Under the pieces are notes generated by a model. The model searched no databases. It was given only the letters and a program-made list of their open reading frames with translations, and was not told the origin of the DNA. Of a stretch of 64,000 nucleotides of DNA, positions 4,220-19,550 are shown piece by piece; position 1 is the stretch's first letter; the number at the start of each line of letters is the position of its first letter. The position numbers and the translations under genes were made by a program. This stretch comes from Kribbella sp. VKM Ac-2569 (GTDB lineage Bacteria > Actinomycetota > Actinomycetes > Propionibacteriales > Kribbellaceae), in assembly GCF_004216905.1 (NCBI RefSeq), contig NZ_SGXJ01000003.1, positions 248,001 to 312,000 of the forward strand, given 5' to 3'.

Positions 4220-4495
4220 TCAGCTGAGCAGCCTGTCGAGCCTCGACTGGATCTCGCTCTCCTCGCCCTCGACGTCGACCAGTTTGTCGCGGCTGGTTGA
4301 GCCTCGCACCAGCGTCACCGCAGAGCGTCGTACGCCGAACTCGGTGGCGACCGCCTTCAGTACAGCCTTCGTCGCCTGGCCCTCCACAGCCCGGGCTGCG
4401 ACTGCGACCACGAGGGCCGGGCCGGCCGGACCGTCGTACCGGCCGCCGACGCTGGTCCGGGAGGCACCGGGTTTGACCCGGAGCAGGATTCGCAT
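4220..4495 (-). CDS. DUF167 (YggU-like) protein
   Basis: A 91-aa protein of the DUF167/YggU family: an N-terminal strand [13 protein letters not shown], a central [17 protein letters not shown] helix, and [18 protein letters not shown]. The G-x-T-S-R-x-K motif is the family hallmark. The role is unknown. It lies 34 bp downstream of the BTAD regulator gene, so co-transcription is plausible. Confidence 0.85.
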
Positions 4496-4529
4496 GTCCG
4501 AATTCTCGCCTGCGCCGGTGTGGATCCGG

Positions 4530-7304
4530 TTACCAGCGGACGAGCTTCCATACTTCTGGTCGGGGTTCGTCGGCGGCGTCGATGTCCGTGCCGTGCGGGG
4601 CGCCTACGTCGGCGAAGATCGCGACCGCTGCTTTGAGGTGCCGCATGGACTCGTCGGGGTGGCCGAGGGCGTGGTGCAGATCGGCGAGATTGTTGTGCAA
4701 GGCGGCCTCGCGGTGGCGGTCGCCTTCCTGGGCGCACAGGGCGAGCGCGATGCCGGCCAGTTCGAGTGCGGGCTGCAGTTCTCCGCGGGCGCGATGGGCG
4801 AGGGCGAGATTGTTCAGGGCCGCGACGCGGCCGGGCAGGTCGCCGATCTGCTCGGCGAGGGTGCGGCCGGTCGTGAGATGCCGGAAGGCGTCGTCGAGGC
4901 GACCGTCGGCGGTCGCGAGCATGCCGAGCATGTTGTGTGCCTGGCCAAGGGCTCGTCGGTCGCCTGACTCGGTGGCGAACGCGAGTGCCTGGCGGGCGAG
5001 TTCCGTCGCGCCCGCCGTGTCGCCGGCGTCGTGGCGGGTGAGGCTCAGGTCGGCAGTGACGCGGGCGTGCTCGGCAGGTTGATCGGGCGGCAGGGTCTCC
5101 AAGGCGGCGCGGAAGTGTGCCTCCGCGAGTGCCCACTCACCGCGCCTGTGGCGCAAGCGCCCCAGCCGGTGCTCGATCCCCGGCAGGTCGGCGGTGGATG
5201 CGTCGGCGGCCGCCGATTCATAGCTGCGTACGGCGGCGTCGTAGTCGCCGGCGAGCATCTCCAGGTCCCCGATCGAGGCGTGCAACGTGGACGGATTGTC
5301 GTGCCCGAGTGCCAGCGCCGCGTGCAGGTGTTCGAGGGCCTCAGCGTTGGCGTAGACCTTGCCGGCTTGGTCGGCGGCGGCAACGTAGGCCTGGGCGGCC
5401 TCCTGGTCGCGGCCGGCGAGTTGGAGGTGGCGGGCAACGACTGCGGCGGGGCCGTGGACGGCGCGGGCCGCCCGGGCGTGCAGCAGTCGGCGCCGGGCGA
5501 GGCCGGTGTCGTCGGACACGAGCCGTCGCAGCTGGTCGTGGACGAAGTCGTAGTCGAGGGCACCTTCCCGGACCAGCCCGCGGCGTACGAGTTCCTCCAG
5601 CGAGGCGACGGTCTCCTCGTCAGTGCGCCCGCTGACCGCACGGACCGTGTCGACGTCGAACGATCGCCCAAGGACTGCCGCGGCGGCCAGTATTTGCCCG
5701 GCCGTGTCGCTGATCCTGTCGAGGCGCGCGCGCAGGAGATCGTTGACGCCGGTCGGCACCGGCCAGTTCTCTTCGGCACCGATGGTGAGAGCGTTCAGGT
5801 ACTCGACGACGAGCAGCGGCACGCCCTCTGTCTCGTCGTACAACCTGCGCGCCAGTTTGGGGTCCGCGGACGGCCGCGCGCTGGCGAGCAGCTCACCTAT
5901 CGCGTCCTGGTCGAGCCGACCGAGCCGGCGTACGGCGCCACCGCTTCGTGCGACCTCCGGGACGACACTGCCGATCGGATGGACGGCGGGGGTTCGCCAG
6001 GTGAGTGTGACCAGCAGCGGGCGGCCCGCGAGCCGGCGGAGGCCGTACCTGAGGAGGGCCAAGGACGCCTCGTCCAGCCAGTGTGCGTTGTCGATATGGA
6101 TCACGCCGGGGACGGGACCGGACACCGCCGCGGCGAGGGTGTCCCAGACGGCCGCCAGGAACCTGGCTTCGGCTCCCGGACCTTCGGCCTGGCGTTCGGG
6201 GCGAGCATCTGCGATCTCCGGCAACAGCCGGGACACCTCGGCGATCGTCCGGTCAGGTACGTCGTTGACCCAGCGGGCGTCGTCGCGCAGCCGGGTCCGC
6301 AACGCGTCGACCAGTGGCGCGTACGCCAACGCTGCCTCGTCCTCGTACGCCCGGCCGACCAGTACGACGGCACCGTTCTTGCGCAGGTCGACGAGCAGCT
6401 CCTCGACCAGGCGGGTCTTGCCGATGCCGACCTCGCCCTCGACGACGGCCAGCCGGCCGTCGCGATCGATTGCGTCGTACACCGCGCGAACGGCCCGTAC
6501 GTCATCGTTCCGTCCGACGAACGGTGTCTGGGTCGGCTCCGTCTCCCGCTCCGGAGCCCCGTCGGCCTCCGCGGTAGGGGGCGCGCCGGCCGCGACCAGG
6601 GTGCCTGTGTTGACGGCCTCGTAGAGCTCGGTGGTCTCGGGGAGCGGCGACACCCCCAGCTCGCGGGATAGCGTGCGGACGCACTGGCGGTACTGGAGCA
6701 GCGCCGCGGCCCTGTCGCCGGTGAGCGCATACAGCCGGATCAGCGCGCGATGCGCCGGCTCGTGCAGGGGGTCGAGCGACAACCAGCGACGTACGTGAAC
6801 AAGCGCGGCCTCCTCCGAGCCGGCCTCCTCCAGACCGGCCGCCAGCCGGGCCAGGACACTTGTCAGTTCGCGGCGTAGGGAGTCGGCCTGGTTCCGTGCC
6901 CAATCCTCGAAATCGGGAGCGTCCCGCAGACCGAAGCCTTCCAGGAAGTCGCCGCGGAACAGATCGACCGCGGTGTCCAGATCACCTTCGGCCACCAGGG
7001 CCCGGAAGCGGTCGACATCGACGGACAGGTCCTGGCTCTTGATCAGGCGTACGTGATCTCGCGTGGTCTCGAGCGACTCGGGCCCGATCGCGGCGCGCAG
7101 CGTGGACAGGGTCCGCCGTAGCGCACCGCGGGCGTGCTCGATGTCGTTGTCCGGCCACAGCAGATCGGCCAGGGCGTCCCGCGGGCGCGGCCGGTCGGCC
7201 AGGGCCAGATGGGCGAGCAGCGCCACCGCCTTGCGGGTATCGAACCCGACCAGCGTTCCCGCCCGCTCGACCCGAGGCGGACCCAACAGACTGACCTCGA
7301 TCAC
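4530..7304 (-). CDS. AfsR/SARP-type transcriptional regulator with ATPase and TPR domains
   Basis: A 924-aa multidomain regulator. Residues 1-90 form the winged-helix DNA-binding domain (IEVSLLGPPRVE...TRKAVALLAHLAL). Residues 95-240 are the bacterial transcriptional activator (BTAD) domain. An AAA/STAND-like ATPase follows, with Walker A EGEVGIGKT at 288-296 and a Walker-B-like GVIHIDNAHW. The C-terminal third is tetratricopeptide-like helical repeats. A GTG start at 7304 (or 7307) begins right before the DNA-binding domain. It is divergent from the five-sensor operon and is a candidate regulator of it; that is inference from position. The signal sensed is unknown. Confidence 0.88.
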   Translation of the reverse strand: MIEVSLLGPPRVERAGTLVGFDTRKAVALLAHLALADRPRPRDALADLLWPDNDIEHARGALRRTLSTLRAAIGPESLETTRDHVRLIKSQDLSVDVDRFRALVAEGDLDTAVDLFRGDFLEGFGLRDAPDFEDWARNQADSLRRELTSVLARLAAGLEEAGSEEAALVHVRRWLSLDPLHEPAHRALIRLYALTGDRAAALLQYRQCVRTLSRELGVSPLPETTELYEAVNTGTLVAAGAPPTAEADGAPERETEPTQTPFVGRNDDVRAVRAVYDAIDRDGRLAVVEGEVGIGKTRLVEELLVDLRKNGAVVLVGRAYEDEAALAYAPLVDALRTRLRDDARWVNDVPDRTIAEVSRLLPEIADARPERQAEGPGAEARFLAAVWDTLAAAVSGPVPGVIHIDNAHWLDEASLALLRYGLRRLAGRPLLVTLTWRTPAVHPIGSVVPEVARSGGAVRRLGRLDQDAIGELLASARPSADPKLARRLYDETEGVPLLVVEYLNALTIGAEENWPVPTGVNDLLRARLDRISDTAGQILAAAAVLGRSFDVDTVRAVSGRTDEETVASLEELVRRGLVREGALDYDFVHDQLRRLVSDDTGLARRRLLHARAARAVHGPAAVVARHLQLAGRDQEAAQAYVAAADQAGKVYANAEALEHLHAALALGHDNPSTLHASIGDLEMLAGDYDAAVRSYESAAADASTADLPGIEHRLGRLRHRRGEWALAEAHFRAALETLPPDQPAEHARVTADLSLTRHDAGDTAGATELARQALAFATESGDRRALGQAHNMLGMLATADGRLDDAFRHLTTGRTLAEQIGDLPGRVAALNNLALAHRARGELQPALELAGIALALCAQEGDRHREAALHNNLADLHHALGHPDESMRHLKAAVAIFADVGAPHGTDIDAADEPRPEVWKLVRW

Positions 7305-7345
7305 CACACCCCCACCCGGTGCGCCGGCGGCGCGGCGGACCGCGC

Positions 7346-7364
7346 ACCGAAACCGTAACGATTC
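7346..7364 (+). promoter_or_regulatory. Candidate regulatory motif upstream of the sensor operon
   Basis: ACCGAA followed by ACCGTAACGATTC. The same string, with one inserted G, recurs at 13346-13365 upstream of the SpoIIE-phosphatase gene. It lies in the 132-bp divergent region between the BTAD regulator and the first sensor gene. It could be a binding site of that regulator or a promoter element. Confidence 0.45.
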
Positions 7365-7439
7365 TTGCACGCTGGACTGCGAACGTGTCGTCCACTGGGG
7401 AATCGGGCGTTCCATGCCTGCAGGGGGAGGGAGACTTCA

Positions 7440-8651
7440 GTGGCGGTCCGAGTGGGTGCTGCCCGTCTGGCCTGGCCGGTGTGGGGACTGTGCGTCGCGC
7501 TGACCGCGGTCGCGCTCGTACTCTTCGTGATCAACGGAGATGTCCGGCCGGCCGACTCGTACGGCTCCCTGGATGCCGTGATCGACGTCGCGAGCTTGGG
7601 CTTCCCGACGGTGGGCGCGACGATCGTGGCCCGGCAACCGGACAACGCGATCGGCTGGCTGTTCCTGGCGACCGGTCTGGGGAACGCACTCTCGCAGATC
7701 TTGCTCGAGTACGGCGCCTACGCCCTACTGCGCGCGCCGGGCACAGTGCCCGGTGGAGCGTGGGCCGGCCTGGTGGCCGATGCTGTGATCTGGCCCAGCG
7801 TCGCGGCGACTTCGGTCCTGGTGTTCGCGCTCTTCCCCACCGGACACGTGCCATCGCGGAGGTGGCGGTGGCTCGTCTGGGCGGTGGCTGTCGACGTGGC
7901 GGCCTACGTCATCGGGACGTTGCTCGCGCCGGGGGAGCTGCACTACTTCCCGACGGTCTCGAATCCGTTCCCGGCACCGAGTGCAGTCATGTCGGCGGTC
8001 GGCGATGTCGCCGCACCTACCCTGGGCATCGGGCTCATCTTCGGGGTGGTGGCGCTGGCGGTCCGCTTCCGGCGATCGCGAGGGGTGGAGCGGCTGCAGA
8101 TCTCCTGGATGTTCTACCTCGCGGCTGTGCTGTTCGGGTCCATTCCGATCATGACGGCGCTGTCGTCCACCAACCTTCAAGTCGGCGACATCCCGGTGGA
8201 CGAACTGGTCTTCGCGGGTTTGCTTCTGATGATCCCATTGGCCGTCGGTGTCGCGATCCTGCGGTATCGCCTGTACGACATTGACGTCGTCATCAACCGG
8301 ACGCTGGTGTACGGCGCTCTGTCCGTGACACTGGGCGCGGCGTACGTCGGGAGCGTCTTGTTGCTGCAGTTGGTCTTGAGCCCCGTGACACAGGGATCGG
8401 GTCTCGCGGTCGCGGTGTCGACGCTCTTGGTGGCGGGGCTGTTCCGCCCGGTGCGGTCGCGGATCCAGGGCCTGGTCGACCGGCGCTTCTTCCGGCGCCG
8501 GTACGACGCGGCCCGGACGCTGGAGGCGTTCGGTACCCGGTTGCGGGACCAGCTGGATCTCGATGCCCTCGGCACCGATCTCCAGGCCGTGGTGCGCGAC
8601 ACCATGCAGCCGGCCCATGTGACACTGTGGCTGCGCAAGGCCGACCGATGA
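7440..8651 (+). CDS. Membrane sensor paralogue 1 of 5
   Basis: A 403-aa polytopic membrane protein. The GTG at 7440 follows GGGGGAGGGAG. Hydrophobic segments alternate with family landmarks: ARQPDNAIGWLF, LFPTGHVPSRRWR, RYRLYDIDVVINRTLVYGAL, RPVRSRIQGLVDRRFFRRRY, ending in DTMQPAHVTLWLRK. In actinobacteria this C-terminal stretch is typically the linker that leads into the kinase part of sensor histidine kinases. Here the protein stops there, so no kinase or GAF output is present. It is first of five tandem copies joined by ATGA overlaps, and upstream of a SpoIIE/STAS module. A role in sensing for that module is inference. Confidence 0.8.
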   Translation: MAVRVGAARLAWPVWGLCVALTAVALVLFVINGDVRPADSYGSLDAVIDVASLGFPTVGATIVARQPDNAIGWLFLATGLGNALSQILLEYGAYALLRAPGTVPGGAWAGLVADAVIWPSVAATSVLVFALFPTGHVPSRRWRWLVWAVAVDVAAYVIGTLLAPGELHYFPTVSNPFPAPSAVMSAVGDVAAPTLGIGLIFGVVALAVRFRRSRGVERLQISWMFYLAAVLFGSIPIMTALSSTNLQVGDIPVDELVFAGLLLMIPLAVGVAILRYRLYDIDVVINRTLVYGALSVTLGAAYVGSVLLLQLVLSPVTQGSGLAVAVSTLLVAGLFRPVRSRIQGLVDRRFFRRRYDAARTLEAFGTRLRDQLDLDALGTDLQAVVRDTMQPAHVTLWLRKADR

Positions 8652-9838
8652 GCGCCCGGTGGCCGGCGTGGAGCCTGTTCGGCCTCTTTGTCGCACTGGC
8701 CGTGGCAACTCCCGTCCTGGTGGCGGTTCGCGGCGGCAACGCATCCGACGCGCTGGTCGCGATCGGGATCGGTTTCGCGCTCGTCGGTGCGCTGGTCGCG
8801 TCCCGGCAGCCCGCCAACGCGGTGGGATGGCTGCTGCTCGTCGCAGCTGTTGCCCTGGGCCTCGACACCCTCACGACCGTGTACGCCGGCCGGTCGTCGT
8901 CTCCCGGCGCGGAGTGGGCGGGGTGGCTCAACAGCTGGTTGTTGTTCGTGTGGCTTTATCTCCCGGCCCTGTTCCTCGCCTTGGTCTTCCCATCCGGCCG
9001 GCTGCTGTCGCGACGGTGGCGGATCGTTGTCGGGCTCGGCATCGGTGCGGTTGCGGCCAACGTGGTCGGGGCCGCTTTCGCACCCGGCGTACTCGAGATC
9101 CCCGCGGACCGCCCGATCCAGAACCCGCTGGGCGTCGAGGGAGCCGTTGGCAGCGCGCTCTCCTGGCTGTCCGGCGTCGGTGAACTCCTTGCGGCCGGCA
9201 CTCTCGTACTCGGTGGGCTCTCCTTGGTCCTGCGACTGCGGCGATCGCGCGGTCGCGAGCGTCAGCAGGTCACGTGGTTCGCCTACGTCTGCATACTGGC
9301 GCTCGCTCCGTTCGTCGTTCTCGCGCTGGTCAGCCTGGTCGGGGGTGACGAGTTCCCGCCGTGGCTGGACGTGGTCGCGGTGGTCGCCTGGTGGTCGCTG
9401 GTCTTCCTGCTCCTCGTCGGGCTGCCGTCGGCCATCGGCATCGCCATCCTGCGTCATCAGCTGTACGGGATCGACGTCGTCATCCACCGGACCCTTGTGT
9501 ACGGCGCTCTGACGTTGACGCTGGGTACGTCGTACCTCGGGAGTGTCCTGCTCCTCCAACTTGTGCTGAACCCGTTGACGCAGGGGTCGGATCTGGCGGT
9601 GGCGATGTCCACGCTCACGGTGGCGGCGCTGTTCCGCCCGGTGCGTTCGCGGATCCAGGCGCTGGTCGACCGGCGGTTCTTCCGGCGCCGGTACGACGCG
9701 GCCCGCACCCTGGAAGCGTTCGGCTCCCGGTTGCGGGACCAACTCGATGTCGATGCGCTGGGCAACGACCTGCGCGCCGTGGTTCGCGACACCATGCAGC
9801 CGGCCCACGTGACGCTGTGGTTGCGGGGTTCACGATGA
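8648..9838 (+). CDS. Membrane sensor paralogue 2 of 5
   Basis: A 396-aa homologue of the preceding protein with the same order of segments: ASRQPANAVGWLLL, FPSGRLLSRRWR, RHQLYGIDVVIHRTLVYGAL and the basic VDRRFFRRRYDAARTLEAFG linker, ending MQPAHVTLWLRGSR. The ATG at 8648 overlaps the previous stop (ATGA), so its translation is probably coupled. It differs from its siblings by Gly for Asp and His for Asn in the LYDIDVVIN motif, perhaps showing divergence of one copy. Confidence 0.8.
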   Translation: MSARWPAWSLFGLFVALAVATPVLVAVRGGNASDALVAIGIGFALVGALVASRQPANAVGWLLLVAAVALGLDTLTTVYAGRSSSPGAEWAGWLNSWLLFVWLYLPALFLALVFPSGRLLSRRWRIVVGLGIGAVAANVVGAAFAPGVLEIPADRPIQNPLGVEGAVGSALSWLSGVGELLAAGTLVLGGLSLVLRLRRSRGRERQQVTWFAYVCILALAPFVVLALVSLVGGDEFPPWLDVVAVVAWWSLVFLLLVGLPSAIGIAILRHQLYGIDVVIHRTLVYGALTLTLGTSYLGSVLLLQLVLNPLTQGSDLAVAMSTLTVAALFRPVRSRIQALVDRRFFRRRYDAARTLEAFGSRLRDQLDVDALGNDLRAVVRDTMQPAHVTLWLRGSR

Positions 9839-11007
9839 AGCGGTGGGTGCCGATCGGTTTGCTCTGGCTGCTTGCGGTCAGCGTCCCGGTGGGTGGTGTG
9901 GTGGACGATGTCACCAGCAGCGGCGGGATTCCGTCGTCCACCAGCTGGCTGGTGTTCGTCCTGGCCTTCGTGTCGGTCGGCGCGCTGATCGTGTCGCGGC
10001 GCCCCGGCCATCCGATCGGCTGGATCCTGCTCCTGGCCGGAGTGAGTTCGGTGCTGGTCGGATCCACCGGCTACGCGGCCGACGAGTTCATCCGGCTGGG
10101 CTCGGATCAGCCGGTCCTGGTGATCGGCTGGATCTCGACCTGGGCCTGGCTACCGGTCTGGCTGGCGCCGACCTTCGGTCTGCTGCTCTTTCCGACCGGC
10201 CGATTGCCGTCCAGGCGCTGGCGTCCGGTCGTCTGGCTTGCGATCGTCGGCTTCCTGGCGCAGTTCGTCACCGCCGCGTTCGCACCGGGGCCGATGCAGG
10301 ACGTCCCGATGGACAACCCGTTCGGGGTCGACGTCGGTATCGACCTGTGGAACCCGCTGAGAGCGGTGGGAATAGCCGCTCTGCTGATCGCAGTCGCGGC
10401 CTCCATCGTGTCGCTGGTGGTCCGCTACCGCGCCGCCCACGCGGTCGAGCGCCAGCAGATCAAGTGGCTGATGTACGCCGGGATGCTCGTCGCCGGCGGC
10501 CTCTGCGCGGTGGTCGCATTGGAGACAGTGATCGGGCCGGGGACCGCTCCTTACACCGAGGCGATCGCCTCCATGGCGCTGGCCACCGTCCCGGTCGCGA
10601 CCGGGATCGCGATCCTGCGGCACCGGCTGTTCGACATCGACGTCGTCGTCAATCGGACCCTCGTCTACGGCGGTCTGACGGTCTCGTTGGGCGCGGCGTA
10701 CGTCGGCAGCGTCCTCCTGCTGCAGTTGGTGCTGAGGCCGCTGACCGAGACGTCGGGCCTGGCGGTGGCGGTGTCGACGCTCGCGGTCGCCGCGTTGTTC
10801 CGGCCGGTCCGGTCGCGAATCCAGGCCGTGGTGGACCGGAGGTTCTTCCGGCGCAAGTACGACGCGGCCCGGACGTTGGCGGCCTTCGGCGGACGGCTGC
10901 GCGACGAACTGGATGTCGAGGCTCTCGGCACCGATCTCGAAGCCGTCGTTCGCGACACCATGCAGCCGGCGCACGTGTCCCTGTGGCTTCGGAGGGCCGA
11001 GCGATGA
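9835..11007 (+). CDS. Membrane sensor paralogue 3 of 5
   Basis: A 390-aa member of the tandem family, starting in an ATGA overlap at 9835. The N-terminal half (SRRPGHPIGWILLLAG, LFPTGRLPSRRWR) and the region around VERQQIKWLMYAG are shared with its neighbours. The C-terminus carries VDRRFFRRKYDAARTLAAFG and ends MQPAHVSLWLRRAER. The extracytoplasmic loops between the conserved blocks are the least similar parts, as expected if copies differ in the signal they detect (inference). Confidence 0.8.
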   Translation: MKRWVPIGLLWLLAVSVPVGGVVDDVTSSGGIPSSTSWLVFVLAFVSVGALIVSRRPGHPIGWILLLAGVSSVLVGSTGYAADEFIRLGSDQPVLVIGWISTWAWLPVWLAPTFGLLLFPTGRLPSRRWRPVVWLAIVGFLAQFVTAAFAPGPMQDVPMDNPFGVDVGIDLWNPLRAVGIAALLIAVAASIVSLVVRYRAAHAVERQQIKWLMYAGMLVAGGLCAVVALETVIGPGTAPYTEAIASMALATVPVATGIAILRHRLFDIDVVVNRTLVYGGLTVSLGAAYVGSVLLLQLVLRPLTETSGLAVAVSTLAVAALFRPVRSRIQAVVDRRFFRRKYDAARTLAAFGGRLRDELDVEALGTDLEAVVRDTMQPAHVSLWLRRAER

Positions 11008-12182
11008 GGGCCCGGATCGCACCTGTCCTGGCCTGGACGCTCGGCGCCATGGCCGTGGCACTCACCGGGATCGCGATCGGCCTGACGGCCGCCGCCGGAA
11101 CGATCGGGCTGGGCTGGGGAGACCTGATGGTCGTGATGGTGGTGGTGTTCTGCGCCGTCGGGATCCTGATCGCGCGACGGCATCCGCGTAACCCGATCGG
11201 CTGGATCTTCTGTGCGTCCGCAGTGATCAACGGCGTCGGGTCCGTGGCCAGAGGGTACGCCGACTATCGGCAGGCCGGGGCGGGTTCGGCCGGCTCGCTC
11301 GCGGAGGCCGCGGCGGTGTACGCGACCGTGTCGTGGATTCCGGTCATCCTGGTGCCGGCGGCGTACCTGCCCTTGCTGTTCCCGGACGGCCGGCTGCTCT
11401 CGGCACGGTGGCGGCCGGTGGCGTGGTGCGGCGTACTCGGTATCGCCGGACTCTTCGTCGCCAGCGCCACGAAACCAGGTCCGCTCGAGGATTTCCCCAC
11501 CCTGACGAACCCGTACGCGGTCGACAGCGTGGTACAGACGATCGCCGAGGGGATGACCGCGCTGGCGGCACTGATCGTCCTGGTGGCCTCCCCGGTGTCG
11601 CTGATCCTGCGGTTCCGCAAAGCCGGCTACGAGCAGCGCCAGCAGATCAAGTGGCTGGTCTGGTCCGGCGCGCTGGCCGCCGCGACGATCGCGATCGGCA
11701 CGGTCGGCTACGAGCTGCTCACTCCCGCGGTGGCCAACGCCGCGATCCTGCTCAGCGTTCTCGGTCTGCCGATCGCGACCGGCATCGGAATCCTGCGGCA
11801 TCGCCTCTACGACATCGACGTGGTGATCAACCGCACGATCGTGTACGGCGCTCTGACCGTCACGCTGGCCGCCGGATATCTGGGCAGTGTCCTGCTGCTC
11901 CAGCTCCTGTTGCGTCCGGTGACGCAGGGCTCGGGACCGGCCGTCGCGGTGTCCACACTGGTGGTCGCGGCCCTGTTCCGCCCGGTCCGGTCGCGAATCC
12001 AGGCCGCGGTGGACCGACGCTTCTTCCGCCGCCGGTACGACGCAGCACGGACCCTCGAGGCGTTCGGCGTACGTCTGCGGGAGCAACTGGATCTCGATGC
12101 GCTGGGCAACGACCTGCAAGGCGTGGTGCGCGACACCATGCAGCCGACCCAGGTGACGCTGTGGCTGCGGAGCCGGCCATGA
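11004..12182 (+). CDS. Membrane sensor paralogue 4 of 5
   Basis: A 392-aa member of the tandem family, starting in an ATGA overlap at 11004. Conserved blocks are ARRHPRNPIGWIF, LFPDGRLLSARWR, QRQQIKWLVWSG, RHRLYDIDVVINRTIVYGAL and VDRRFFRRRYDAARTLEAFG, ending MQPTQVTLWLRSRP. As in the other copies, no catalytic domain follows the linker. Confidence 0.8.
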   Translation: MRARIAPVLAWTLGAMAVALTGIAIGLTAAAGTIGLGWGDLMVVMVVVFCAVGILIARRHPRNPIGWIFCASAVINGVGSVARGYADYRQAGAGSAGSLAEAAAVYATVSWIPVILVPAAYLPLLFPDGRLLSARWRPVAWCGVLGIAGLFVASATKPGPLEDFPTLTNPYAVDSVVQTIAEGMTALAALIVLVASPVSLILRFRKAGYEQRQQIKWLVWSGALAAATIAIGTVGYELLTPAVANAAILLSVLGLPIATGIGILRHRLYDIDVVINRTIVYGALTVTLAAGYLGSVLLLQLLLRPVTQGSGPAVAVSTLVVAALFRPVRSRIQAAVDRRFFRRRYDAARTLEAFGVRLREQLDLDALGNDLQGVVRDTMQPTQVTLWLRSRP

Positions 12183-13384
12183 CAGCGCGGCTGCCCTGGC
12201 TGATCTGCGCCGGTGCGAGCGTCGTCGGGATTCCCGCAGCGGTGGTGGTGACCACGGTCGGGAGGACAGGGCCGATGGAACTGCTGGGCGGCGCCGGTTT
12301 CGCGCTGGCCGGCCTCGGCGCCGCCGCCATCGGCGCGGTGGTCGCGTCCCGGCTTCCGCGGCACGCCGTGGGCTGGATCCTGCTCGCACTCGGCGTCGGG
12401 ATCGACCTGCCGTTCGCGCCGGAGGCTTACGCCGAGCTGAGCCTGGTGCCGGGTTCCGGTCCGCTACCCGGTGATGAGTGGGCAGCATGGGTCAGCAGCT
12501 GGGCCACCGTCCCGGCGTTCTTCGGTCTGACCGCCTTCCTGTTCATGCTCTTTCCGACAGGCCGGCTGCCGTCGCGACGATGGCGCTGGGCCGGTTGGTT
12601 CGTCGCTGTCAGCGTCGCGCTGGCGACGGTGGCCGTGGCACTCGCACCGGACGAGATCGATTCCGGCTTCGACAACCCGGTCGCGCCGACCGGCCGGGGA
12701 GCCGAGTTCGCCCGCTGGCTGTCGGACGCCACCGATCTGCTAGCAGCTCCGGTGCTGGTGATCGCCACGGCCGCCTTGGTCGTACGCCTGCGACGATCGG
12801 GAGGGGTCGAACGTCAACAGCTCAAATGGTTCACCTACGCCGCCGTGATGGTCGGCGCGGGGATCGGGGCCGGCAGCGCGATGCCTCCCGGGCGGGTCGC
12901 CAACGCCGCCTACATCGTCGGCCTGCTGGCTGTCGCCGGGCTGCCGGTCGCCGCCGGGCTGGCGGTCCTCCGATATCGCCTCTACGACATCGACCTGGTG
13001 ATCAACAAGACGTTGGTGTACGGCGCTCTGACCGTGACGCTTGGTACGGCGTACCTGGGAAGTGTCCTGCTGTTGCAGGTGGTATTGGGTCCGGTGACGC
13101 AGGGCTCAGGGCTGGCCGTGGCGGTGTCGACGTTGGCGGTTGCGGCCCTGTTCCGCCCGGTGCGGTCGCGGATCCAGGCCGGGGTGGATCGGCGGTTCTT
13201 CCGGCGCCGGTACGACGCGGCTCGGACGCTGGACGCGTTCGGTGCACGGCTGCGCCATGAACTCGACCTGCAGGCGCTGGCCGCCGATCTGCGCACCGTC
13301 GTACACGACACCATGCAGCCGACTCACGTGTCGCTGTGGCTGCGAACCGAAGACCGTAACGATTCCCGGACGACGTACCAGTAG
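12179..13384 (+). CDS. Membrane sensor paralogue 5 of 5
   Basis: A 401-aa last member of the tandem array, starting in an ATGA overlap at 12179. It has ASRLPRHAVGWILL, LFPTGRLPSRRWRW, VERQQLKWFTYAA, RYRLYDIDLVINKTLVYGAL and VDRRFFRRRYDAARTLDAFG, ending MQPTHVSLWLRTED plus a short tail. Its last codons contain the motif also found before the first sensor gene. The phosphatase gene starts 12 bp after its stop. Confidence 0.8.
   Translation: MTARLPWLICAGASVVGIPAAVVVTTVGRTGPMELLGGAGFALAGLGAAAIGAVVASRLPRHAVGWILLALGVGIDLPFAPEAYAELSLVPGSGPLPGDEWAAWVSSWATVPAFFGLTAFLFMLFPTGRLPSRRWRWAGWFVAVSVALATVAVALAPDEIDSGFDNPVAPTGRGAEFARWLSDATDLLAAPVLVIATAALVVRLRRSGGVERQQLKWFTYAAVMVGAGIGAGSAMPPGRVANAAYIVGLLAVAGLPVAAGLAVLRYRLYDIDLVINKTLVYGALTVTLGTAYLGSVLLLQVVLGPVTQGSGLAVAVSTLAVAALFRPVRSRIQAGVDRRFFRRRYDAARTLDAFGARLRHELDLQALAADLRTVVHDTMQPTHVSLWLRTEDRNDSRTTYQ
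13346..13365 (+). promoter_or_regulatory. Second copy of the sensor-operon motif
   Basis: ACCGAA, one G, then ACCGTAACGATTC. It matches the motif at 7346-7364 except for that inserted base. It sits inside the last codons of sensor gene 5, 31 bp before the SpoIIE-phosphatase start, where an internal promoter could lie. Confidence 0.4.
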
Positions 13385-13396
13385 AAAGGGCTTGTG

Positions 13397-15031
13397 ATGG
13401 CCGCACTGAGCAGCACCTTCCGCCGCCTCCGCAGGCGAACCGCCGCCGGGGCAGGCCTCCCGACGCCCGAGGATCGCGCGCAACCGGTCCCGGGCGACGA
13501 GGCGACGCCGGTCGACATCGCACCCAACGATCCGCTCCTGGCATACCTGCAGAGCGCGAGCGGCGCTGTGGACGTGGAGGCACTCGAGCTCGACTCGCCC
13601 GCGCTGGCAGAGCTCAAGGCCGCGGGCGTCAAGCTCGCCGTGCCGCTGGTGAGCCAGGGCGAGCTGATCGGCGTACTGAACCTCGGGCCGCGCCGGTCCG
13701 AGCAGGAGTACTCCAGCGACGACCGCAAGCTGCTCGACAACCTCGCCGCGCAGGCTGCGCCGGCGCTGCGGGTCGGTCAGCTGGTCCGCCAGCAACAGGC
13801 CGAGGCCCGCACCCGCCAGCGCTTTGAGCAGGAGCTCGAGGTCGCCCGGCTGATCCAGCAGAACTTCCTGCCCAAACAGCTCCCCGAGTTGTCCGGCTGG
13901 CAGGTCGCGGCCTGCTACCAACCGGCGCGTGAGGTGGGCGGCGACTTCTACGACGTGATCCCCTTGACCGACGGTCAGGTCGGCTTCGTCATCGGCGATG
14001 TCACCGACAAGGGCGTACCGGCGGCGCTGGTCATGGCCGCCACCCGCAGCGTGCTGCGTGCCTCCGCCCAGCGACTGATCGAACCTGGCGCGGTACTCGA
14101 GCGGGTCAACGAACACCTCTGCCCGGACATGCCCGCGAAGATGTTCGTCACCTGCCTGTACGGCGTTCTGGACCCGGACACCGGCCACTTCCGGTTCGCC
14201 AATGCCGGGCACGATCTGCCGTACGTGAAGACAGCCCTGGGCTCGGTCGAGTTGCGCGCCCGGGGGATGCCGCTGGGTCTGATGACCGGGATGAAGTACG
14301 AGGAGCGGGAGACCCTGCTCGCGCCCGGTGATTCGTTGCTGCTGCACTCCGACGGCATTGTCGAAGCACACGATCCGCAGGGCCAGATGTTCGGCTTCCC
14401 ACGCCTCAAGGAAGCGGTTGCACGGTACCCAGGGGGTGGCGAGCTGATCGACCTGGTGCTTGCGGACCTGCACGCCCATACCGGGCCCGACGCCGAGCAG
14501 GAGGACGACATCACCATGGTCGTGCTGCAACGTGAGCCGGCTCGGGGCGACAGCCCGAACGGCAAGGTCGCGGGCGAGCTGCTCATCGAGTTCGAGGTGC
14601 CGAGTGCCCAGGGCAACGAGCGGATGGCGCTCGAACGAGTCGCCGCCACAGTCGGTCCGCTCGGCCTCGAGCCCGCGCGGCTCCGTCGCCTGGAGACCGC
14701 GGTCGCCGAAGCCACGATGAACGCGATGGAACACGGCAACTCCTACCGGGCCGACCGCCCGGTCACGGTCCGGGTGTACGCCGAGACCGGCCGGATCCGC
14801 GTCGAGGTCGCCGACCTCGGTGGTGCCCGGTCGGCCCCCGATCAGGCCGAGGTACCGGACCTGGAGGCGAAGCTCGCAGGTCTCCAGCGGCCTCGGGGCT
14901 GGGGATTGTTCCTGATCAAGAACATGGTCGACGAGGCCCGCGAGACCGGCGACGGCGAACACCACACCGTCGAGCTCGTCATGCACCTCGAACCGGAGTC
15001 GACGCAAGGAGCCGACGATGACGACACGTGA
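13397..15031 (+). CDS. GAF-SpoIIE phosphatase fused to RsbW-like HATPase
   Basis: A 544-aa partner-switching protein. Residues 40-125 look like a short GAF domain and are followed by a helical linker to about 160. The PP2C/SpoIIE phosphatase spans about 165-380, with metal-binding acidic residues in GGDFYDV (D183), GDVTDKG (D201), SDGIVEA (D319) and EDDITMV (D371). The C-terminus is an anti-sigma-type GHKL ATPase, with N-box EATMNAMEHGN near 438-448 and G-box RGWGLFLIKNMVDE. Both opposing activities, dephosphorylating and phosphorylating a STAS partner, may thus be in one chain. The two STAS genes overlap or follow directly. No sigma-factor gene is nearby. Confidence 0.9.
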   Translation: MAALSSTFRRLRRRTAAGAGLPTPEDRAQPVPGDEATPVDIAPNDPLLAYLQSASGAVDVEALELDSPALAELKAAGVKLAVPLVSQGELIGVLNLGPRRSEQEYSSDDRKLLDNLAAQAAPALRVGQLVRQQQAEARTRQRFEQELEVARLIQQNFLPKQLPELSGWQVAACYQPAREVGGDFYDVIPLTDGQVGFVIGDVTDKGVPAALVMAATRSVLRASAQRLIEPGAVLERVNEHLCPDMPAKMFVTCLYGVLDPDTGHFRFANAGHDLPYVKTALGSVELRARGMPLGLMTGMKYEERETLLAPGDSLLLHSDGIVEAHDPQGQMFGFPRLKEAVARYPGGGELIDLVLADLHAHTGPDAEQEDDITMVVLQREPARGDSPNGKVAGELLIEFEVPSAQGNERMALERVAATVGPLGLEPARLRRLETAVAEATMNAMEHGNSYRADRPVTVRVYAETGRIRVEVADLGGARSAPDQAEVPDLEAKLAGLQRPRGWGLFLIKNMVDEARETGDGEHHTVELVMHLEPESTQGADDDDT

Positions 15032-15383
15032 AGCCCTCGCCCACGTACGCCGGCGGGACGGTGTAGCGGTCATCGAACTGATCGGTGATCTCAACGCCGC
15101 GGCCGAGTCCGCACTGGACGAGGCCTGGACCGCCGCGACCACCGTACGGCCCGATGCCGTGGTGCTCAGCTTCGAGAACAGCGGCTACATCAATTCGACC
15201 GGCATCGCGCTGGTGGTGGGCCTGCTCGCGAGCGCGCGGGCACACCGCATCCCGATCCGGGCGTACGGCCTCACCGACCACTACCGCGAGATCTTCGAGA
15301 TCACCCGGCTGGCCGACTTCATGGCGATCGAGAACGACGAGGACAGCGCCGTACAGGGCGTGGGAGGGGACAGAAATGGCTGA
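15018..15383 (+). CDS. STAS anti-sigma-factor antagonist 1
   Basis: A 121-aa single STAS-domain protein of the SpoIIAA/RsbV type. The phosphorylatable serine is expected in GYINSTGIALV, and the protein continues with the ARAHRIPIRAYGLTDHYREIFEITRL block seen in this family. The gene overlaps the end of the phosphatase gene by 14 nt, so translation is coupled. It is the predicted substrate of the fused phosphatase/kinase. Confidence 0.88.
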   Translation: MTTREALAHVRRRDGVAVIELIGDLNAAAESALDEAWTAATTVRPDAVVLSFENSGYINSTGIALVVGLLASARAHRIPIRAYGLTDHYREIFEITRLADFMAIENDEDSAVQGVGGDRNG

Positions 15384-15726
15384 GGCAACAGCGACATTCG
15401 ACGTACGCCGGACGGGGACGGCGGGCGTGGTCGACATCCGGGGAGACGTGACAGCGGGCTCGGAGGACGTCCTGATGAAGGCGTACGAGAGCGCCGGCGA
15501 CGTCACGGCGGTGATCCTCAACTTCACCGGACTGTCGTACATGAACAGTGGCGGCATCGGGCTGCTGGTCACCCTGCTGGTGCGGGCCCGACGGCGGTCG
15601 CAACAGCTGCTGGCCTACGGCCTGTCCGAGCACTACAGCCAGATCTTCGAGCTGACCCGCCTCGACGAGGCGATCGGCATCCACGACACCGAGCAGGATG
15701 CGCTGGCCGCGGCCGGCGCGGCATAG
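15376..15726 (+). CDS. STAS anti-sigma-factor antagonist 2
   Basis: A 116-aa second STAS protein. The predicted phosphoserine lies in SYMNSGGIGLLV, followed by LLAYGLSEHYSQIFELTRLDEAIGI. It overlaps the first STAS gene by 8 nt and has a GGGAGGGGA ribosome site. Two different antagonists next to one phosphatase suggest either two output branches or a regulatory complex; this is inference. Confidence 0.88.
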   Translation: MAEATATFDVRRTGTAGVVDIRGDVTAGSEDVLMKAYESAGDVTAVILNFTGLSYMNSGGIGLLVTLLVRARRRSQQLLAYGLSEHYSQIFELTRLDEAIGIHDTEQDALAAAGAA

Positions 15727-15739
15727 AGGGGCGCACGCC

Positions 15740-16498
15740 ATGACCAACAGCAGCAACGACAAGCCCGCCGCGGCAGGCCGCGACGAGGCCAACTGGGCGA
15801 AAATGGTTTCGCGGCTGAAGGTCTCACAGGTGCCCGAAGGCGCCATGAATCTCAACGTGGACGGCCGGCAGCTCACCAGCCCGATCCAGGGCTTCGGGAA
15901 GATGTGGCAGAAGACCTACGTGGTGCGGCTACCGTCCGAGCGCGTCGCGCCGACCGAGCTGATCGCCACCTGGCGCAAGGATTTCGGTGACTTCTGGCCG
16001 CCGGGCAATCACTTCTACGCACCGCTGACCGGCATCGAACCCGGTGAGGTCGCGCTGCTCAACATGAAGGTGCCCGGCATGAAGCTGTCGACCGGCGTCA
16101 TGGTTCTGTACGCCGACGAGGAGTCGTTCACGTTGATGACGCCGCAGGGTCACATGTTCGCCGGCTGGATCACCTTCAGCGCGGCGCAGCAGGACGACGC
16201 GACCGTCGTCCAGGCGCAGGTTCTGATGCGTGCCTCGGATCCGATCTTCGAGCTGGCCCTCGTGATGGGTGGCCATCGCCAGGAAGACCAGTTCTGGATC
16301 CAGACGCTCGGCAACGTGGCCGCGCACTTCGGACATCCGGACGCGACGGTGGACACCAAGGTCGTCTGCGTGGACAGGAAACGGCAGTGGTCGAGGTGGC
16401 GCAACGTGTGGCACTCCTCGGCGATCCGCTCCGCGATCTACATGGCCGAAGCACCCATCCGCGGCGCCAGAAGCCTCACCCACCGGACCGGCGCCTGA
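15740..16498 (+). CDS. Protein of unknown function, SRPBCC/DUF1990-like (tentative)
   Basis: A 252-aa soluble protein, last gene of the partner-switching operon, 13 bp after STAS 2. Notable features are LTSPIQGFGKMWQKTYVVRL, a WRKDFGDFWPPGNHFYAPL segment and a run of strands (VMVLYADEESFTLMTPQGHMFAGWITFSA). The strand-rich core with a late amphipathic region resembles lipid- or ligand-binding START/SRPBCC domains, but I cannot confirm the family. Its conserved position next to STAS proteins would be the best clue to its role. Confidence 0.7.
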   Translation: MTNSSNDKPAAAGRDEANWAKMVSRLKVSQVPEGAMNLNVDGRQLTSPIQGFGKMWQKTYVVRLPSERVAPTELIATWRKDFGDFWPPGNHFYAPLTGIEPGEVALLNMKVPGMKLSTGVMVLYADEESFTLMTPQGHMFAGWITFSAAQQDDATVVQAQVLMRASDPIFELALVMGGHRQEDQFWIQTLGNVAAHFGHPDATVDTKVVCVDRKRQWSRWRNVWHSSAIRSAIYMAEAPIRGARSLTHRTGA

Positions 16499-16517
16499 CG
16501 CTGTAATCCTGTCTGGT

Positions 16518-17384
16518 TCACAGCATTGCTGCTTCAGTGAGCGCGGTCAGCAGTGCTGTGATCGCCGGCGGGTCCGGCGGTTCGCCGTACGTCGCGGCGT
16601 ACACGTGCCGAAGCGAGCCGGGCAGCTCGGTGGCGATGATGCCGTCGACATGGTGGCTGCGGAGGGCGAGGCCGGGCAAGGTGGTCACCCCGAGGCCGGC
16701 CGCGACGAGTGCTTGCATCACCACCATGTCGTCGGACGTGTACCCGATTCGCGGCTCGTAGCCGGCCGCCGCGCACAGCGAGATCAGGTGCCTGCGGCAA
16801 CGATCGCAGCCGGCGATCCAGGTCGCGTCGTGGAGTCCGGCGAGGGTGGCCGGCTGGTCTTTCGACAGCAGGTACAGCGGATCGTCCAGCAAATGGTGCA
16901 GTCGAACACCGGTCGGCTCCGGCTCGGTCTCGTCGTACCGAAAGACGATCGCGACATCGATCGTGCCGGTGCGCAACAGTTCGAGCGCCTCCGGCGGATG
17001 GGTGTCGATGAGGCTGACCTCGAGACCGGGGTGTTTGCCGGCCAGCGCCGAGACGGCGCCTGGTACGAGTGATCCGATCGCGGACGAGAAGGCCGCCAGG
17101 CGGAGGCGCCCTGCGCTCAGTCCGACGTAGGCCGCGAGTTCGGCGTCGACGGCGTCGATCCGGCCGATGATCTCCGCTGCGCGGGCAGCAAGCAATCGGC
17201 CCGCTTCGGTCAGGCGGATGCCGCGGCCCGCGCGCTGCAGCAGTCGTGCGCCCGTCTCAGCCTCGAGGCGGGCGAGGTGATGAGTGACGGACGGCTGCGA
17301 GTAGTGCAGTTCGCGCGCCGCGGCGGTGACCGATCCGTGGCGCGCGACGGCGTCGATGACGCGCAGTCTCGTGACATCGAGCAT
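16518..17384 (-). CDS. LysR-family transcriptional regulator
   Basis: A 288-aa LysR-type regulator. The N-terminal helix-turn-helix (RLRVIDAVARHGSVTAAARELHYSQPSVTHHLARLE) is canonical. The effector-binding domain starts near residue 90 (GRLRLAAFSSAIGSLVPGAVSAL). It contains an unusual CDRCRRHLISLC stretch with three Cys, which might sense redox state or thiols; that is inference. It is divergent from the cysteine-dioxygenase-like gene across 74 bp, the usual layout for a LysR protein and its target. Confidence 0.9.
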   Translation of the reverse strand: MLDVTRLRVIDAVARHGSVTAAARELHYSQPSVTHHLARLEAETGARLLQRAGRGIRLTEAGRLLAARAAEIIGRIDAVDAELAAYVGLSAGRLRLAAFSSAIGSLVPGAVSALAGKHPGLEVSLIDTHPPEALELLRTGTIDVAIVFRYDETEPEPTGVRLHHLLDDPLYLLSKDQPATLAGLHDATWIAGCDRCRRHLISLCAAAGYEPRIGYTSDDMVVMQALVAAGLGVTTLPGLALRSHHVDGIIATELPGSLRHVYAATYGEPPDPPAITALLTALTEAAML

Positions 17385-17458
17385 GTATCAACCCTGTCTA
17401 TGGATGAGTACGAAACTTGGCATTAGACGTTATGGGTTGCTGGGCGCACGCTCAAGAC
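17385..17458. promoter_or_regulatory. Divergent LysR / dioxygenase promoter region
   Basis: A 74-bp region between two divergent genes that must hold both promoters and probably the LysR binding site. It includes the A/T-richer stretch TATCAACCCTGTCTATGGAT beside the LysR start. I cannot place -35 and -10 boxes with confidence. Confidence 0.4.
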
Positions 17459-17968
17459 ATGACGACGACAGCGATCTCCACTACTGACCTCACGGACCTG
17501 GTCAGCGGCGTCCGCGCCGCCATCGACCAGCACGCCGACTGGCACGGCACCGCTCAACTCGTGGCCGAGGAACTACGCCGCCACCTGCCGACTCCCGACG
17601 TACTGTCCGCTGAGCAGCGTCTCGGCTCTGAGGATAGCTACCGCAGCCACACGCTGTACGTCGAACCCGACGGATCCTTCTCGATCATCGCCCTGGTTTG
17701 GCGGCCCGGGCAGATGACCCGGATCCACGACCACGTGACCTGGTGCGTGTTCGGAGTGATCCAGGGCGTCGAACACGAGGACTTGTACGACGCCGACCTC
17801 CGGCTGATCGGCCAGAGCGACAACCAGGTCGGTGACGTGAGCGGATTCGCGCCTCCCGGCGACATCCACCGTGTCAACAACACCTCGGACCAGACGGCGA
17901 TCTCCATCCACATCTACGGCACCGACGTGACCCGCATCGGGTCGAGCGCACGCCGCTTCTACAACTGA
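17459..17968 (+). CDS. Cysteine dioxygenase-family cupin
   Basis: A 169-aa cupin of the cysteine dioxygenase type-I / 3-mercaptopropionate dioxygenase group, which oxidise a thiol to a sulfinic acid with ferrous iron. Metal ligands are visible as the two His of RIHDHVTW and the His of PPGDIHRVNN. The VFGVIQGVEHEDLY block between them is typical of the bacterial subgroup. The start at 17459 gives MTTTAIST. Whether the substrate is cysteine or a related thiol is open. The divergent LysR gene is the likely regulator. Confidence 0.85.
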   Translation: MTTTAISTTDLTDLVSGVRAAIDQHADWHGTAQLVAEELRRHLPTPDVLSAEQRLGSEDSYRSHTLYVEPDGSFSIIALVWRPGQMTRIHDHVTWCVFGVIQGVEHEDLYDADLRLIGQSDNQVGDVSGFAPPGDIHRVNNTSDQTAISIHIYGTDVTRIGSSARRFYN

Positions 17969-18328
17969 GAGTCGCGCCCGCCGGCTATGTCGTGAGCGGC
18001 ACACCACGATCACGCTCGGGCTGGTGAGTATGTTTCAGTTGTTAACGTGTCCAGGCCCTGGGTGAAGACTTTCTGCGTTCCCTTCGCGGCGGGCGCAGGG
18101 ACGAGATGCCAGGCCGGCGGGGATCACGCCGTGCGCGGAAACGCCTTTCCAGGAACGGTTTTCGGCGATGAGTCGACGAGGTCCGGTCGATTGTCGTTAC
18201 GAGACCGTGACGCGCGAATGTCTGGTTGATGTCTTGACCAACCTCCATGTGAGCGCAAACATGTGAGCGCTAACAATCGATCTGACCTGTGATGTGGGAG
18301 TGACACCTATCCCGGAGGGGAAGCGTTC
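17969..18328. other. Intergenic region with arabinose-locus control sites
   Basis: A 360-bp region with no convincing gene. The distal part holds nothing I recognise. The last 100 bp carry a TTGACC at 18234-18239, two tandem LacI-type sites at 18248-18275 and the ribosome site of the binding-protein gene (GGAGGGGAAG). Confidence 0.5.
18248..18275. promoter_or_regulatory. Tandem LacI-type operators of the arabinose transporter
   Basis: TGTGAGCGCAAACA at 18248-18261 is followed without a gap by TGTGAGCGCTAACA at 18262-18275. Both are variants of the LacI-family pattern TGTTAGCGCTAACA that occurs as a palindromic core before araB. They sit 54-81 bp before the GTG start of the binding protein, downstream of a possible -35 TTGACC. 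Confidence 0.7.
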
Positions 18329-19468
18329 GTGAAGAAGAGGTTTGTGGCCACTCTGAGTGGTGCCTTGCTGGTGCTCGGCCTGGCGGCGTGCGGCGGAGAG
18401 GGAGCGGGCGGGACCACCGACACCGCGAGTCAGCAGCCCAAGGATCTGACCATCGGGGTGTCGATGCCGACGCAGACGTCGGAGCGCTGGATCGCCGACG
18501 GCAAAGCGGTGAAGGAGAAGCTCGAGGCGAAGGGATACAAGGTCGATCTGCAGTACGCGAACGACGACATCCCGACCCAGTCGCAGCAGGTTGATCAGAT
18601 GATCACCCAGGGCGCCGACGTGCTGGTGATCGCCGCGATCGACGGCACCGCGCTCAGCAGCCAGTTGCAGGCGGCGGCCGACAAGAAGATCCCGGTGGTC
18701 GCGTACGACCGGCTGATCCGCGGCAGTCAGAACGTCGACTTCTACGTCAGCTTCGACAACTACAAGGTCGGTGTCGCTCAGGCGAAGTCACTTCTTCGAG
18801 GGCTGGGCCTGGAGAACGCGGACGGCTCGAAGGGCACCAAGACCGGGCCGCTCAACATCGAGGTCTTCGCCGGCTCATTGGACGACAACAACACGCACTT
18901 CTTCTTCCAAGGCGCCATGGACACCCTGAAGCCGTATCTGGACAACGGCTCGCTGGTCGTCAAGTCGAAGCAGACCAAGCTCGAGCAGGTCGCGATCCTG
19001 CGCTGGCAGCAGGAGGCCGCACAGAAGCGGATGGAGAACCTGCTGACGTCGAGCTACAACGACGGCGGCAAGGTGGCCGGCGTCCTCTCGCCGTACGACG
19101 GCATCTCGCGCGGCATCATCACCGCGTTGCAGAACGTCGGCTACGGCACGCCGGCCAACCCGATGCCGGCGATCACCGGTCAGGACGCGGAGATCGCGTC
19201 GGTCAAGCTCATCAACACCGGTGTCCAGAGCTCCACGATCTTCAAGGACACCCGGCTGCTGGCCGAGCAGGCCGTCAACGCGTCGGTGGCGTTCCTGGAG
19301 AAGAAGCAGCCGGAGGCCAACGACACCAAGTCGTACGACAACGGCACGAAGGTCGTCCCGGCGTACCTGCTGCCGATCCAGAGCGTCTTCAAGCAAGACA
19401 TCCAGAAGCAGCTCGTCGACTCCGGTTACTACACGGCCGCCGAGGTCGCCGCCGGTCAGGCGAAGTGA
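18329..19468 (+). CDS. chvE: ChvE-type multiple-sugar-binding protein
   Basis: A 379-aa periplasmic-binding-family lipoprotein for arabinose and related sugars. The GTG start at 18329 follows GGAGGGG. The signal is lipoprotein-type, with lipobox GLAAC near residue 21. The body matches ChvE-type proteins throughout: LTIGVSMPTQTSERWIADG, QVDQMITQGADVLVIAAIDG, VVAYDRLIRGSQNVDFYVSFDN, PAITGQDAEIASVKLI. The transporter ATPase and permease follow. Location among araBDA and LacI genes makes L-arabinose the likely substrate, though ChvE relatives accept several aldoses. Confidence 0.92.
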   Translation: MKKRFVATLSGALLVLGLAACGGEGAGGTTDTASQQPKDLTIGVSMPTQTSERWIADGKAVKEKLEAKGYKVDLQYANDDIPTQSQQVDQMITQGADVLVIAAIDGTALSSQLQAAADKKIPVVAYDRLIRGSQNVDFYVSFDNYKVGVAQAKSLLRGLGLENADGSKGTKTGPLNIEVFAGSLDDNNTHFFFQGAMDTLKPYLDNGSLVVKSKQTKLEQVAILRWQQEAAQKRMENLLTSSYNDGGKVAGVLSPYDGISRGIITALQNVGYGTPANPMPAITGQDAEIASVKLINTGVQSSTIFKDTRLLAEQAVNASVAFLEKKQPEANDTKSYDNGTKVVPAYLLPIQSVFKQDIQKQLVDSGYYTAAEVAAGQAK

Positions 19469-19472
19469 CACC

Positions 19473-19512
19473 CGGCCGGGACTCGGCGGCACCGACCGCC
19501 GAGCCCCGGCCG
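19473..19512 (+). terminator. Strong intercistronic stem-loop
   Basis: A 17-bp stem with one A-C mismatch (arms 19473-19489 and 19496-19512, loop CACCGA) begins 4 bp after the binding-protein stop. No U-tract follows. Such hairpins between binding-protein and ATPase genes usually terminate part of the transcripts or protect the upstream message, giving more binding protein than membrane complex. Confidence 0.75.
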
Positions 19513-19550
19513 CGACCTGAGGTGGACGGTGCGGCCGCGAAGGAGGCTGA

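Follow-up and report, generated by a model that had tools for sequence, protein, structure and literature searches.

Bacterial partner switching of the Rsb type (RsbU/RsbP-RsbW-RsbV and SpoIIE-SpoIIAB-SpoIIAA) combines a PP2C-type phosphatase, a GHKL kinase and a STAS protein with a conserved serine, and all three components recur in the locus described here. In the stressosome, one downstream phosphatase is acted on by the RsbR proteins, a set of paralogous sensors that share a conserved output domain; these sensors are soluble and contain STAS domains. In plants, the PYR/PYL proteins are hormone receptors acting on PP2C. The present analysis concerns a gene cluster of Kribbella sp. VKM Ac-2569 that lies in a stretch of 64,000 nucleotides (nt) of contig NZ_SGXJ01000003.1 (positions 248,001 to 312,000 of the forward strand; hereafter the window), in a genome of 8.4 Mb. 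In this cluster, genes for five membrane sensors (S1 to S5) are followed by genes for a phosphatase-kinase fusion (P), two STAS proteins (STAS1 and STAS2) and a protein termed U. An initial annotation of the window had described five paralogous membrane proteins of 390-403 amino acids (aa) with similar C-terminal segments, joined by four ATGA overlaps, and had proposed that they feed one phosphatase/kinase. Coordinates and alignment bear out the description of the sensors and their tails, while Pfam and the gene calls agree that a SpoIIE/RsbW-type fusion, two STAS genes and one more gene come next. Sequence comparison and structural models incline us to the reading that the cluster encodes a partner-switching module in which interchangeable receptors engage one phosphatase-kinase in trans, via a shared GAF domain.

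Sensor tails and the GAF region of P

The detached sensors are encoded on the forward strand by S1 (7440-8651; 403 aa, with a GTG start), S2 (8648-9838; 396 aa), S3 (9835-11007; 390 aa), S4 (11004-12182; 392 aa) and S5 (12179-13384; 401 aa), the four ATGA overlaps starting at positions 8648, 9835, 11004 and 12179. A simple Kyte-Doolittle scan identified 10 or 11 hydrophobic segments per sensor (10 in the multi-transmembrane S1). Pfam analysis of the five window sensors revealed no HisKA, HATPase or STAS domain, and Pfam and NCBIfam assigned none of them to a family, the only matches being unrelated and sub-threshold Pfam matches of one protein (P0002). Among 34 sensors from many loci, the same two collections produced single-member matches only, of which the most sensible were HisKA_7TM (2e-4) and 7TMR-DISM (1.9e-3). 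S1-S5 diverge strongly at the N-terminal side: their mean amino-acid identity is 33% over the N-terminal membrane part, but reaches 78% over the last membrane part and 81% over the tail. In S1 the tail comprises residues 344-399 (8469-8636, +), and the sensor alignment, a linker model and a fold comparison made on the S5 tail point to a signalling helix together with a putative initial portion of a GAF domain. S2-S5 terminate in equivalent tails, with S5 carrying 12 more residues after the WLR motif.

The point at which the sensors end is conserved, as 171 of 175 complete sensor tails stop no more than 40 residues past WLR (median 7). The four exceptions are two fusions (in loci L080 and L082), a histidine kinase (L063) and one further frame, in L067. 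The last of these (L067:2-3535, +) is one open frame in which a sensor runs past WLR into an inosine-uridine nucleoside hydrolase domain, and it may represent a real fusion or an artefact of stop-to-stop reading. The tryptophan of WLR is invariant in the 34 sensors and nearly invariant in 51 tails. The initial annotation had regarded the C-terminal segment as a linker at which related proteins continue into a histidine kinase. The position of this segment was correct, but it appears to be more than a linker, since the tail looks like the first helices and the first strand of a GAF domain, the rest of which sits in P. The continuation into a kinase holds for the paralogs of the same genome that were looked at (L089, L090 and L092), where a similar membrane part is followed by a histidine kinase of the HisKA_3 type in the same protein (by reading for all three, by Pfam for L089 and L092); L092 additionally displays a weak Pfam match to GAF (0.0011).

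P (13397-15031, +; 544 aa) had been annotated as a GAF-SpoIIE-RsbW fusion. Its SpoIIE and RsbW-like parts were recovered, while a full GAF domain was not: P holds the later part of this domain (residues ~42-128; 13520-13780, +), after which a long helix extends towards the phosphatase. Three Pfam GAF models of about 130 positions matched P alone at profile positions 51-127, 78-133 and 88-135 only; no whole-domain match was obtained, the first helices and first strand being absent. Similarly, the match to PF01590 starts at positions 70, 50 and 80 in the P proteins of L032, L044 and L063, respectively. When S5 and P were read as one chain, PF01590 was matched over positions 1-133 of 133 with 35.6 bits, as against positions 78-133 and 31.6 bits for P alone. 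The natural fusions of L080 and L082 contain sensor, GAF, phosphatase and kinase in a single frame of 979 and 1050 aa, respectively, and here the Pfam GAF match (7.8e-6 and 7e-5) extends across the join from position 2 to position 130 of 133.

A profile built from the tail plus the head of P gave 29 matches among PDB sequences (E up to 1), of which nine begin in the tail part, including the best two, 3eea (7.4e-6) and 4mcw (2e-5). AlphaFold modelling of the joined S5 tail-P stretch yielded a predicted structure with a mean predicted local distance difference test score (pLDDT) of 84 and a predicted template modelling score (pTM) of 0.73, in which the tail is mostly helical and a loose linker separates the two halves. 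Among the matches listed, the fold neighbours of this model are GAF-containing structures with aligned ranges over both halves and Z-scores of 10.9-12.5, although in a joined model with long helices values below about 13 can reflect a mere common arrangement. One of them, 3o5y (chain length 142), aligned over 127 residues with a Z-score of 11.3 and a root-mean-square deviation (rmsd) of 3.3. The lists of structural neighbours were drawn from the 1000 best Foldseek chains, and absence from them carries no meaning. Both a whole-domain GAF match and a GAF fold were obtained for the artificial join of tail and P head, the tail alone being unrecognised.

Distribution of sensors and P

To define the set of loci, contigs were scanned with P and the best 80 of 109 relatives were kept. 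The nearest named relatives of P belong to Kribbella species, and the wider group includes Kribbella and other Nocardioidaceae, Thermoleophilia, Rubrobacteraceae, Acidimicrobiia and many Chloroflexota, Ktedonobacter among them, in addition to one cyanobacterial metagenome-assembled genome (MAG) and three MAGs labelled Proteobacteria or Deltaproteobacteria. After 13 loci with less than 2 kb upstream of P had been dropped, 67 were available for the assessment of tails: at least one sensor tail is present outside P in 56, a fusion in two, and no tail nearby in nine. Two or more tails upstream of P and on the same strand were observed in 41 of the 67, and the arrays of tails beside SpoIIE-HATPase fusions that the initial annotation had suggested looking for in other genomes are indeed recurrent. 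Genome-wide searches for four of the nine loci without a nearby tail (L047, L068, L069 and L072) identified detached tails elsewhere in all four, and a genome-wide tail search in 10 chosen genomes was positive in every case. The position of the sensors varies in individual loci: they are located on the opposite strand in L036, downstream of the cluster in L029 and elsewhere on the chromosome in L068, with P, two STAS genes and U retained in all three.

Of 117 genomes from the genus and its surroundings, that of the window included, eight contain P at E up to 1e-40, and a sensor match better than 1e-60 was present in the same eight and in none of the 109 genomes without P. Four other genomes around the genus gave sensor matches of 1e-50 to 1e-46 only, which end before the tail end and lie in frames of 666-717 aa. 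In a sample of the phylum (296 genomes including the present one; thresholds of E up to 1e-100 for P and up to 1e-10 for the tail), a tail was found in all 26 genomes with P and in 12 of the 270 without it (Fisher 1.9e-28, ignoring kinship); six of these 12 show weak matches only, none better than 2e-17, and the other six show strong ones. Tail matches amounted to at least 19, 17, 16 and 14 in G322, G342, G129 and G144, respectively, these counts being lower bounds, as up to 19 tail candidates were scored per genome, and some of the tails may be fragments. Of P, one match was observed in 23 of the 26 genomes and two in the other three (again lower bounds, with four candidates scored per genome), and 25 of the 26 gave more matches for the tail than for the phosphatase, both numbers being minimum values. 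The proposal that many inputs converge on one phosphatase/kinase is thus well supported by comparison, through the co-occurrence and this excess of tails. The situation that the initial annotation had named as contradicting its proposal, relatives in which sensors are unlinked to SpoIIE/STAS genes, did not materialise, though strong tails are present in six genomes that lack a cluster-type P.

The evolution of tails and membrane parts was compared for 124 tails from loci with at least two sensors, the window being the sole Kribbella locus used. The nearest tail is found in the same locus for 61 of the 124, and the nearest membrane part for 15. Between Kribbella loci (five loci with three to five tails each), membrane parts have clear counterparts, with best matches 0.70-0.91 identical, compared with at most 0.37 within a locus. 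The clustering of tails by locus would fit a common interface that is kept within each genome. In the window, the S1 and S2 tails resemble each other (0.92) more than they do their closest orthologs (0.83 and 0.86). Gene conversion was considered on this account and was set aside as suggestive only; at third codon positions, the tails of paralogs are just 0.57-0.70 identical.

Proposed mechanism and competing explanations

In the proposed mechanism, the sensor tails would dock at the membrane on the partial GAF domain of P and complete or stabilise it. P starts with a short basic segment, perhaps amphipathic, and may be held at the membrane by this N-terminus, the net charge of which is at least 3 in 50 of 74 relatives (with starts picked by a simple ribosome-site score). 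Since the sensors differ in their membrane parts but hardly in their tails, one P could serve several of them. A signal arising in the membrane part would be relayed through the helix to the joint GAF domain and the helical linker of P, and would alter the phosphatase dimer; this change would tip the balance between dephosphorylation and phosphorylation of the STAS proteins, which the two activities of P would switch. Such a mechanism may be likened to that of RsbU, in which, according to PMC12143880, RsbT binding imposes order on the linker and brings the phosphatase domains together as a dimer; the same paper puts forward an equivalent linker mechanism for other sensor domains, GAF included.

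A number of observations weigh against this reading. The modelled chain was joined artificially, with the TAG stop read as Q, so that the two halves were held together, and the Z-scores of the model fall in the ambiguous range given above. Of the 29 PDB matches of the combined profile, 20 are confined to the P part; a profile of tails only, compared with PDB sequences, retrieved no GAF and weak coiled-coil matches only, and a phmmer search with the S5-P join reached GAF only via the P half, at an E-value of 0.12. Furthermore, the distances between tails of different loci are not specific to the GAF part of P: for 45 loci with P, U and a tail (861 pairs; the near-duplicate loci L010-L013, L016, L046 and L058 were dropped if present), the partial rank correlation with tail distances was 0.17 for the GAF part, a value reached in 11 of 300 label shuffles, and 0.31 for the phosphatase domain. 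Slow evolution of the tails after local duplication could also explain why they cluster by locus. Additionally, six genomes of the phylum sample (G133, G279, G294, G351, G363 and G394), one of them rated 100% complete, have strong tails and no cluster-type P, the best P match being 2.4e-39.

Some of these observations would be accommodated if sensors and P shared a pathway in which the tail does not complete a GAF domain, but dimerises with itself or binds the STAS proteins or the helix of P, its GAF-like appearance being a relic of fused ancestors. That the tails-only profile is unrecognised as GAF, that the tail distances show no particular link to the GAF part of P and that the modelled tail is mostly helix are all in keeping with this explanation, which we nevertheless judge to be unlikely: the end point is shared by 171 of 175 tails, the first GAF part is absent from all four P proteins tested with Pfam, and the invariance or near-invariance of the WLR tryptophan is expected if that strand is used. 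The six genomes with strong tails and no cluster-type P, as well as the L067 frame that continues into a nucleoside hydrolase, could alternatively indicate that the detached sensors serve as general plug-in receptors for several partners, P being one, and that where P is missing they act on other GAF or kinase proteins. This seems improbable in view of the 109 relatives lacking P, none of which has a sensor match better than 1e-60, and of the tails present in each of the 26 P-bearing genomes of the phylum sample; moreover, G351 and G394 each contain a single tail in a frame of just 149 and 175 aa, respectively, and these tails are perhaps fragments. Gaps are another possible cause of the apparent lack of P in the six genomes.

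Two further explanations are given very little credence. The array might have arisen by local duplication of degenerate N-termini of histidine kinases and have no shared function, and the relatives of the membrane part that were looked at in the same genome are indeed histidine kinases; however, such a duplication was rejected on account of the constant end point of the tails, which is seen in loci of several phyla, and of the co-occurrence with P, and the identity of 0.70-0.91 between best-matching membrane parts of different Kribbella loci is a further argument against it. It would be equally surprising if S5 and P were partly made as one protein by read-through of the TAG stop of S5, which lies 12 nt before P, with S5 acting as the main sensor. 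While S5 and P share a frame, with the same TAG stop and 12-nt gap, in all five Kribbella loci tested as well as in the window, and while the frame of P is open back to this stop, the ATG of P is preceded by AAAGG, and among 30 loci outside Kribbella with gaps of up to 300 nt, the last sensor shares its frame with P in 10, as expected by chance. The reading in which interchangeable receptors engage P in trans through a shared GAF domain is retained. Its extension to Actinomycetota and Chloroflexota, and perhaps to other phyla (represented by single MAGs), is advanced more tentatively; here, fleets of interchangeable receptors would each end in an initial GAF portion that becomes functional only in trans, on a shared phosphatase-kinase, with U perhaps acting on the phosphatase in a PYL-like manner.

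Catalytic domains, neighbouring genes and known systems

The SpoIIE/PP2C-type phosphatase domain of P (13970-14533, +) was identified with PF07228 (2.5e-52) and its RsbW/SpoIIAB-like HATPase domain (14624-14977, +) with PF13581 (HATPase_c_2; 2.1e-18), while the NCBIfam equivalogs for RsbW/SpoIIAB matched P below the cut-off only. Across the 80 loci, which include some cut contigs, simple patterns detected the phosphatase motifs of the GGDFYD type in 69, the GDVTDKG type in 80, the SDGxxE type in 64 and the DDIT type in 70, and the kinase motifs of the N-box type in 74 and the G2 type in 76. In four loci of Rubrobacteraceae (L084, L085, L087 and L088), the phosphatase and RsbW-like parts of P are present in separate frames; the fusion may thus not be universal, frameshifts in MAGs being another possible cause.

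STAS1 (15018-15383, +) and STAS2 (15376-15726, +) were both recognised with PF01740 and possess the serine of an antagonist, in the contexts NSTG and NSGG, respectively. By alignment, this serine is present in all 77 relatives of STAS1 and all 73 relatives of STAS2. U (15740-16498, +; 252 aa), which the initial annotation had listed as an unknown protein, can be assigned a helix-grip fold (SRPBCC-type) from its model (pLDDT 94) over residues ~52-201. Among the matches listed, the fold matches of U have Z-scores of 11.0-12.3 and rmsd values of 2.5-3.6 over 127-145 aligned residues; those to KanY (Z 12.3), PYL2 (11.7) and Bet v 1 (11.2) have an rmsd of 2.9-3.4 over 138-142 residues. U is DUF1990-like in that 40 of 70 sequences scanned match this family (PF09348) at E up to 0.1 (best 3.9e-8), while U of the window (P0009) gave no match to it; a profile of U compared with PDB sequences produced weak cold-shock and ribosomal matches only. 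Where the sequence extends for 4 kb or more downstream from the P start (72 loci), at least two STAS genes are present in 67 loci and U in 66. Paired U-type genes lie nearby in 11 of the 72 (L026, L029, L030, L043, L065, L067, L074, L084, L085, L087 and L088).

Divergently from S1, the window encodes a BTAD-AAA_16-TPR regulator (P0010; 4530-7415, -), the real start of which is probably at ~7307, because its relatives begin aligning there. Pfam identified BTAD (1.5e-20), AAA_16 (5.2e-20) and TPR_12 (2.7e-17) in this protein. Relatives of P0010 (above 60 bits, mostly several hundred bits or more) were found in 22 of 34 loci with complete flanking sequence, five of these being from Kribbella, and a regulator of this type lies near the same cluster in several phyla; within the own genome, the next best match scored 99 bits, and no close paralog was found. 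In L036, L040 and L044, the BTAD regulator is located directly before P, with the sensors beyond it. As conserved neighbours, and on this basis alone, the BTAD regulator and U are candidates for the output. A promoter and terminator scan detected no sigma-70-like promoter, with terminators at the level of chance, and no sigma factor was recognised when the open reading frames of ~4357-21149 were read, although a search aimed at sigma factors was not made.

The core of the cluster appears to be a partner-switching module of known kind, and its input side the new part. To our knowledge, there is little work on signalling in the soil actinobacteria and Chloroflexota that carry this module, and no description of detached membrane receptors with a first GAF part and a shared phosphatase-kinase was found in the titles and abstract starts of the open-licence literature searched (subscription papers and preprints lying outside this scope). 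If the reading is true, one phosphatase-kinase would be driven by many receptors that can be freely gained and lost, widening sensing without copying the output, and the cluster would clearly exemplify a sensing domain divided between receptor and effector, with a defined interface.

In contrast to systems of the Rsb type, phosphatase and kinase are here one protein, two STAS proteins are encoded, no sigma factor gene was noticed adjoining, and input would come from several membrane proteins that each carry an apparent GAF portion. The presence of a sensor domain tied to the phosphatase by a helix resembles RsbU as described in PMC12143880. According to the same paper, fusions of the Rv1364c type of Mycobacterium tuberculosis likewise join a phosphatase to an anti-sigma kinase domain, but with a PAS sensor and a STAS domain fused in the same protein, and detached receptors are not mentioned in that description. 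The likeness of U to the PYR/PYL-PP2C pair consists in a helix-grip protein encoded beside a PP2C-fold phosphatase, with PYL structures among its fold matches; it rests on predicted fold and neighbourhood rather than on sequence, and the PYL match is generic, as KanY, Bet v 1 and TcmN score alike. The membrane part is similar to that of the HisKA_3-type histidine kinases L089, L090 and L092, which, unlike the window sensors, have the kinase in the same protein. With RsbR of the stressosome, the window sensors share the logic of several sensors, but they are membrane-bound and without a STAS match. If a GAF domain completed in trans were proven, it would amount to a new principle of receptor coupling, comparable in its logic to the many chemoreceptors that act on one kinase.

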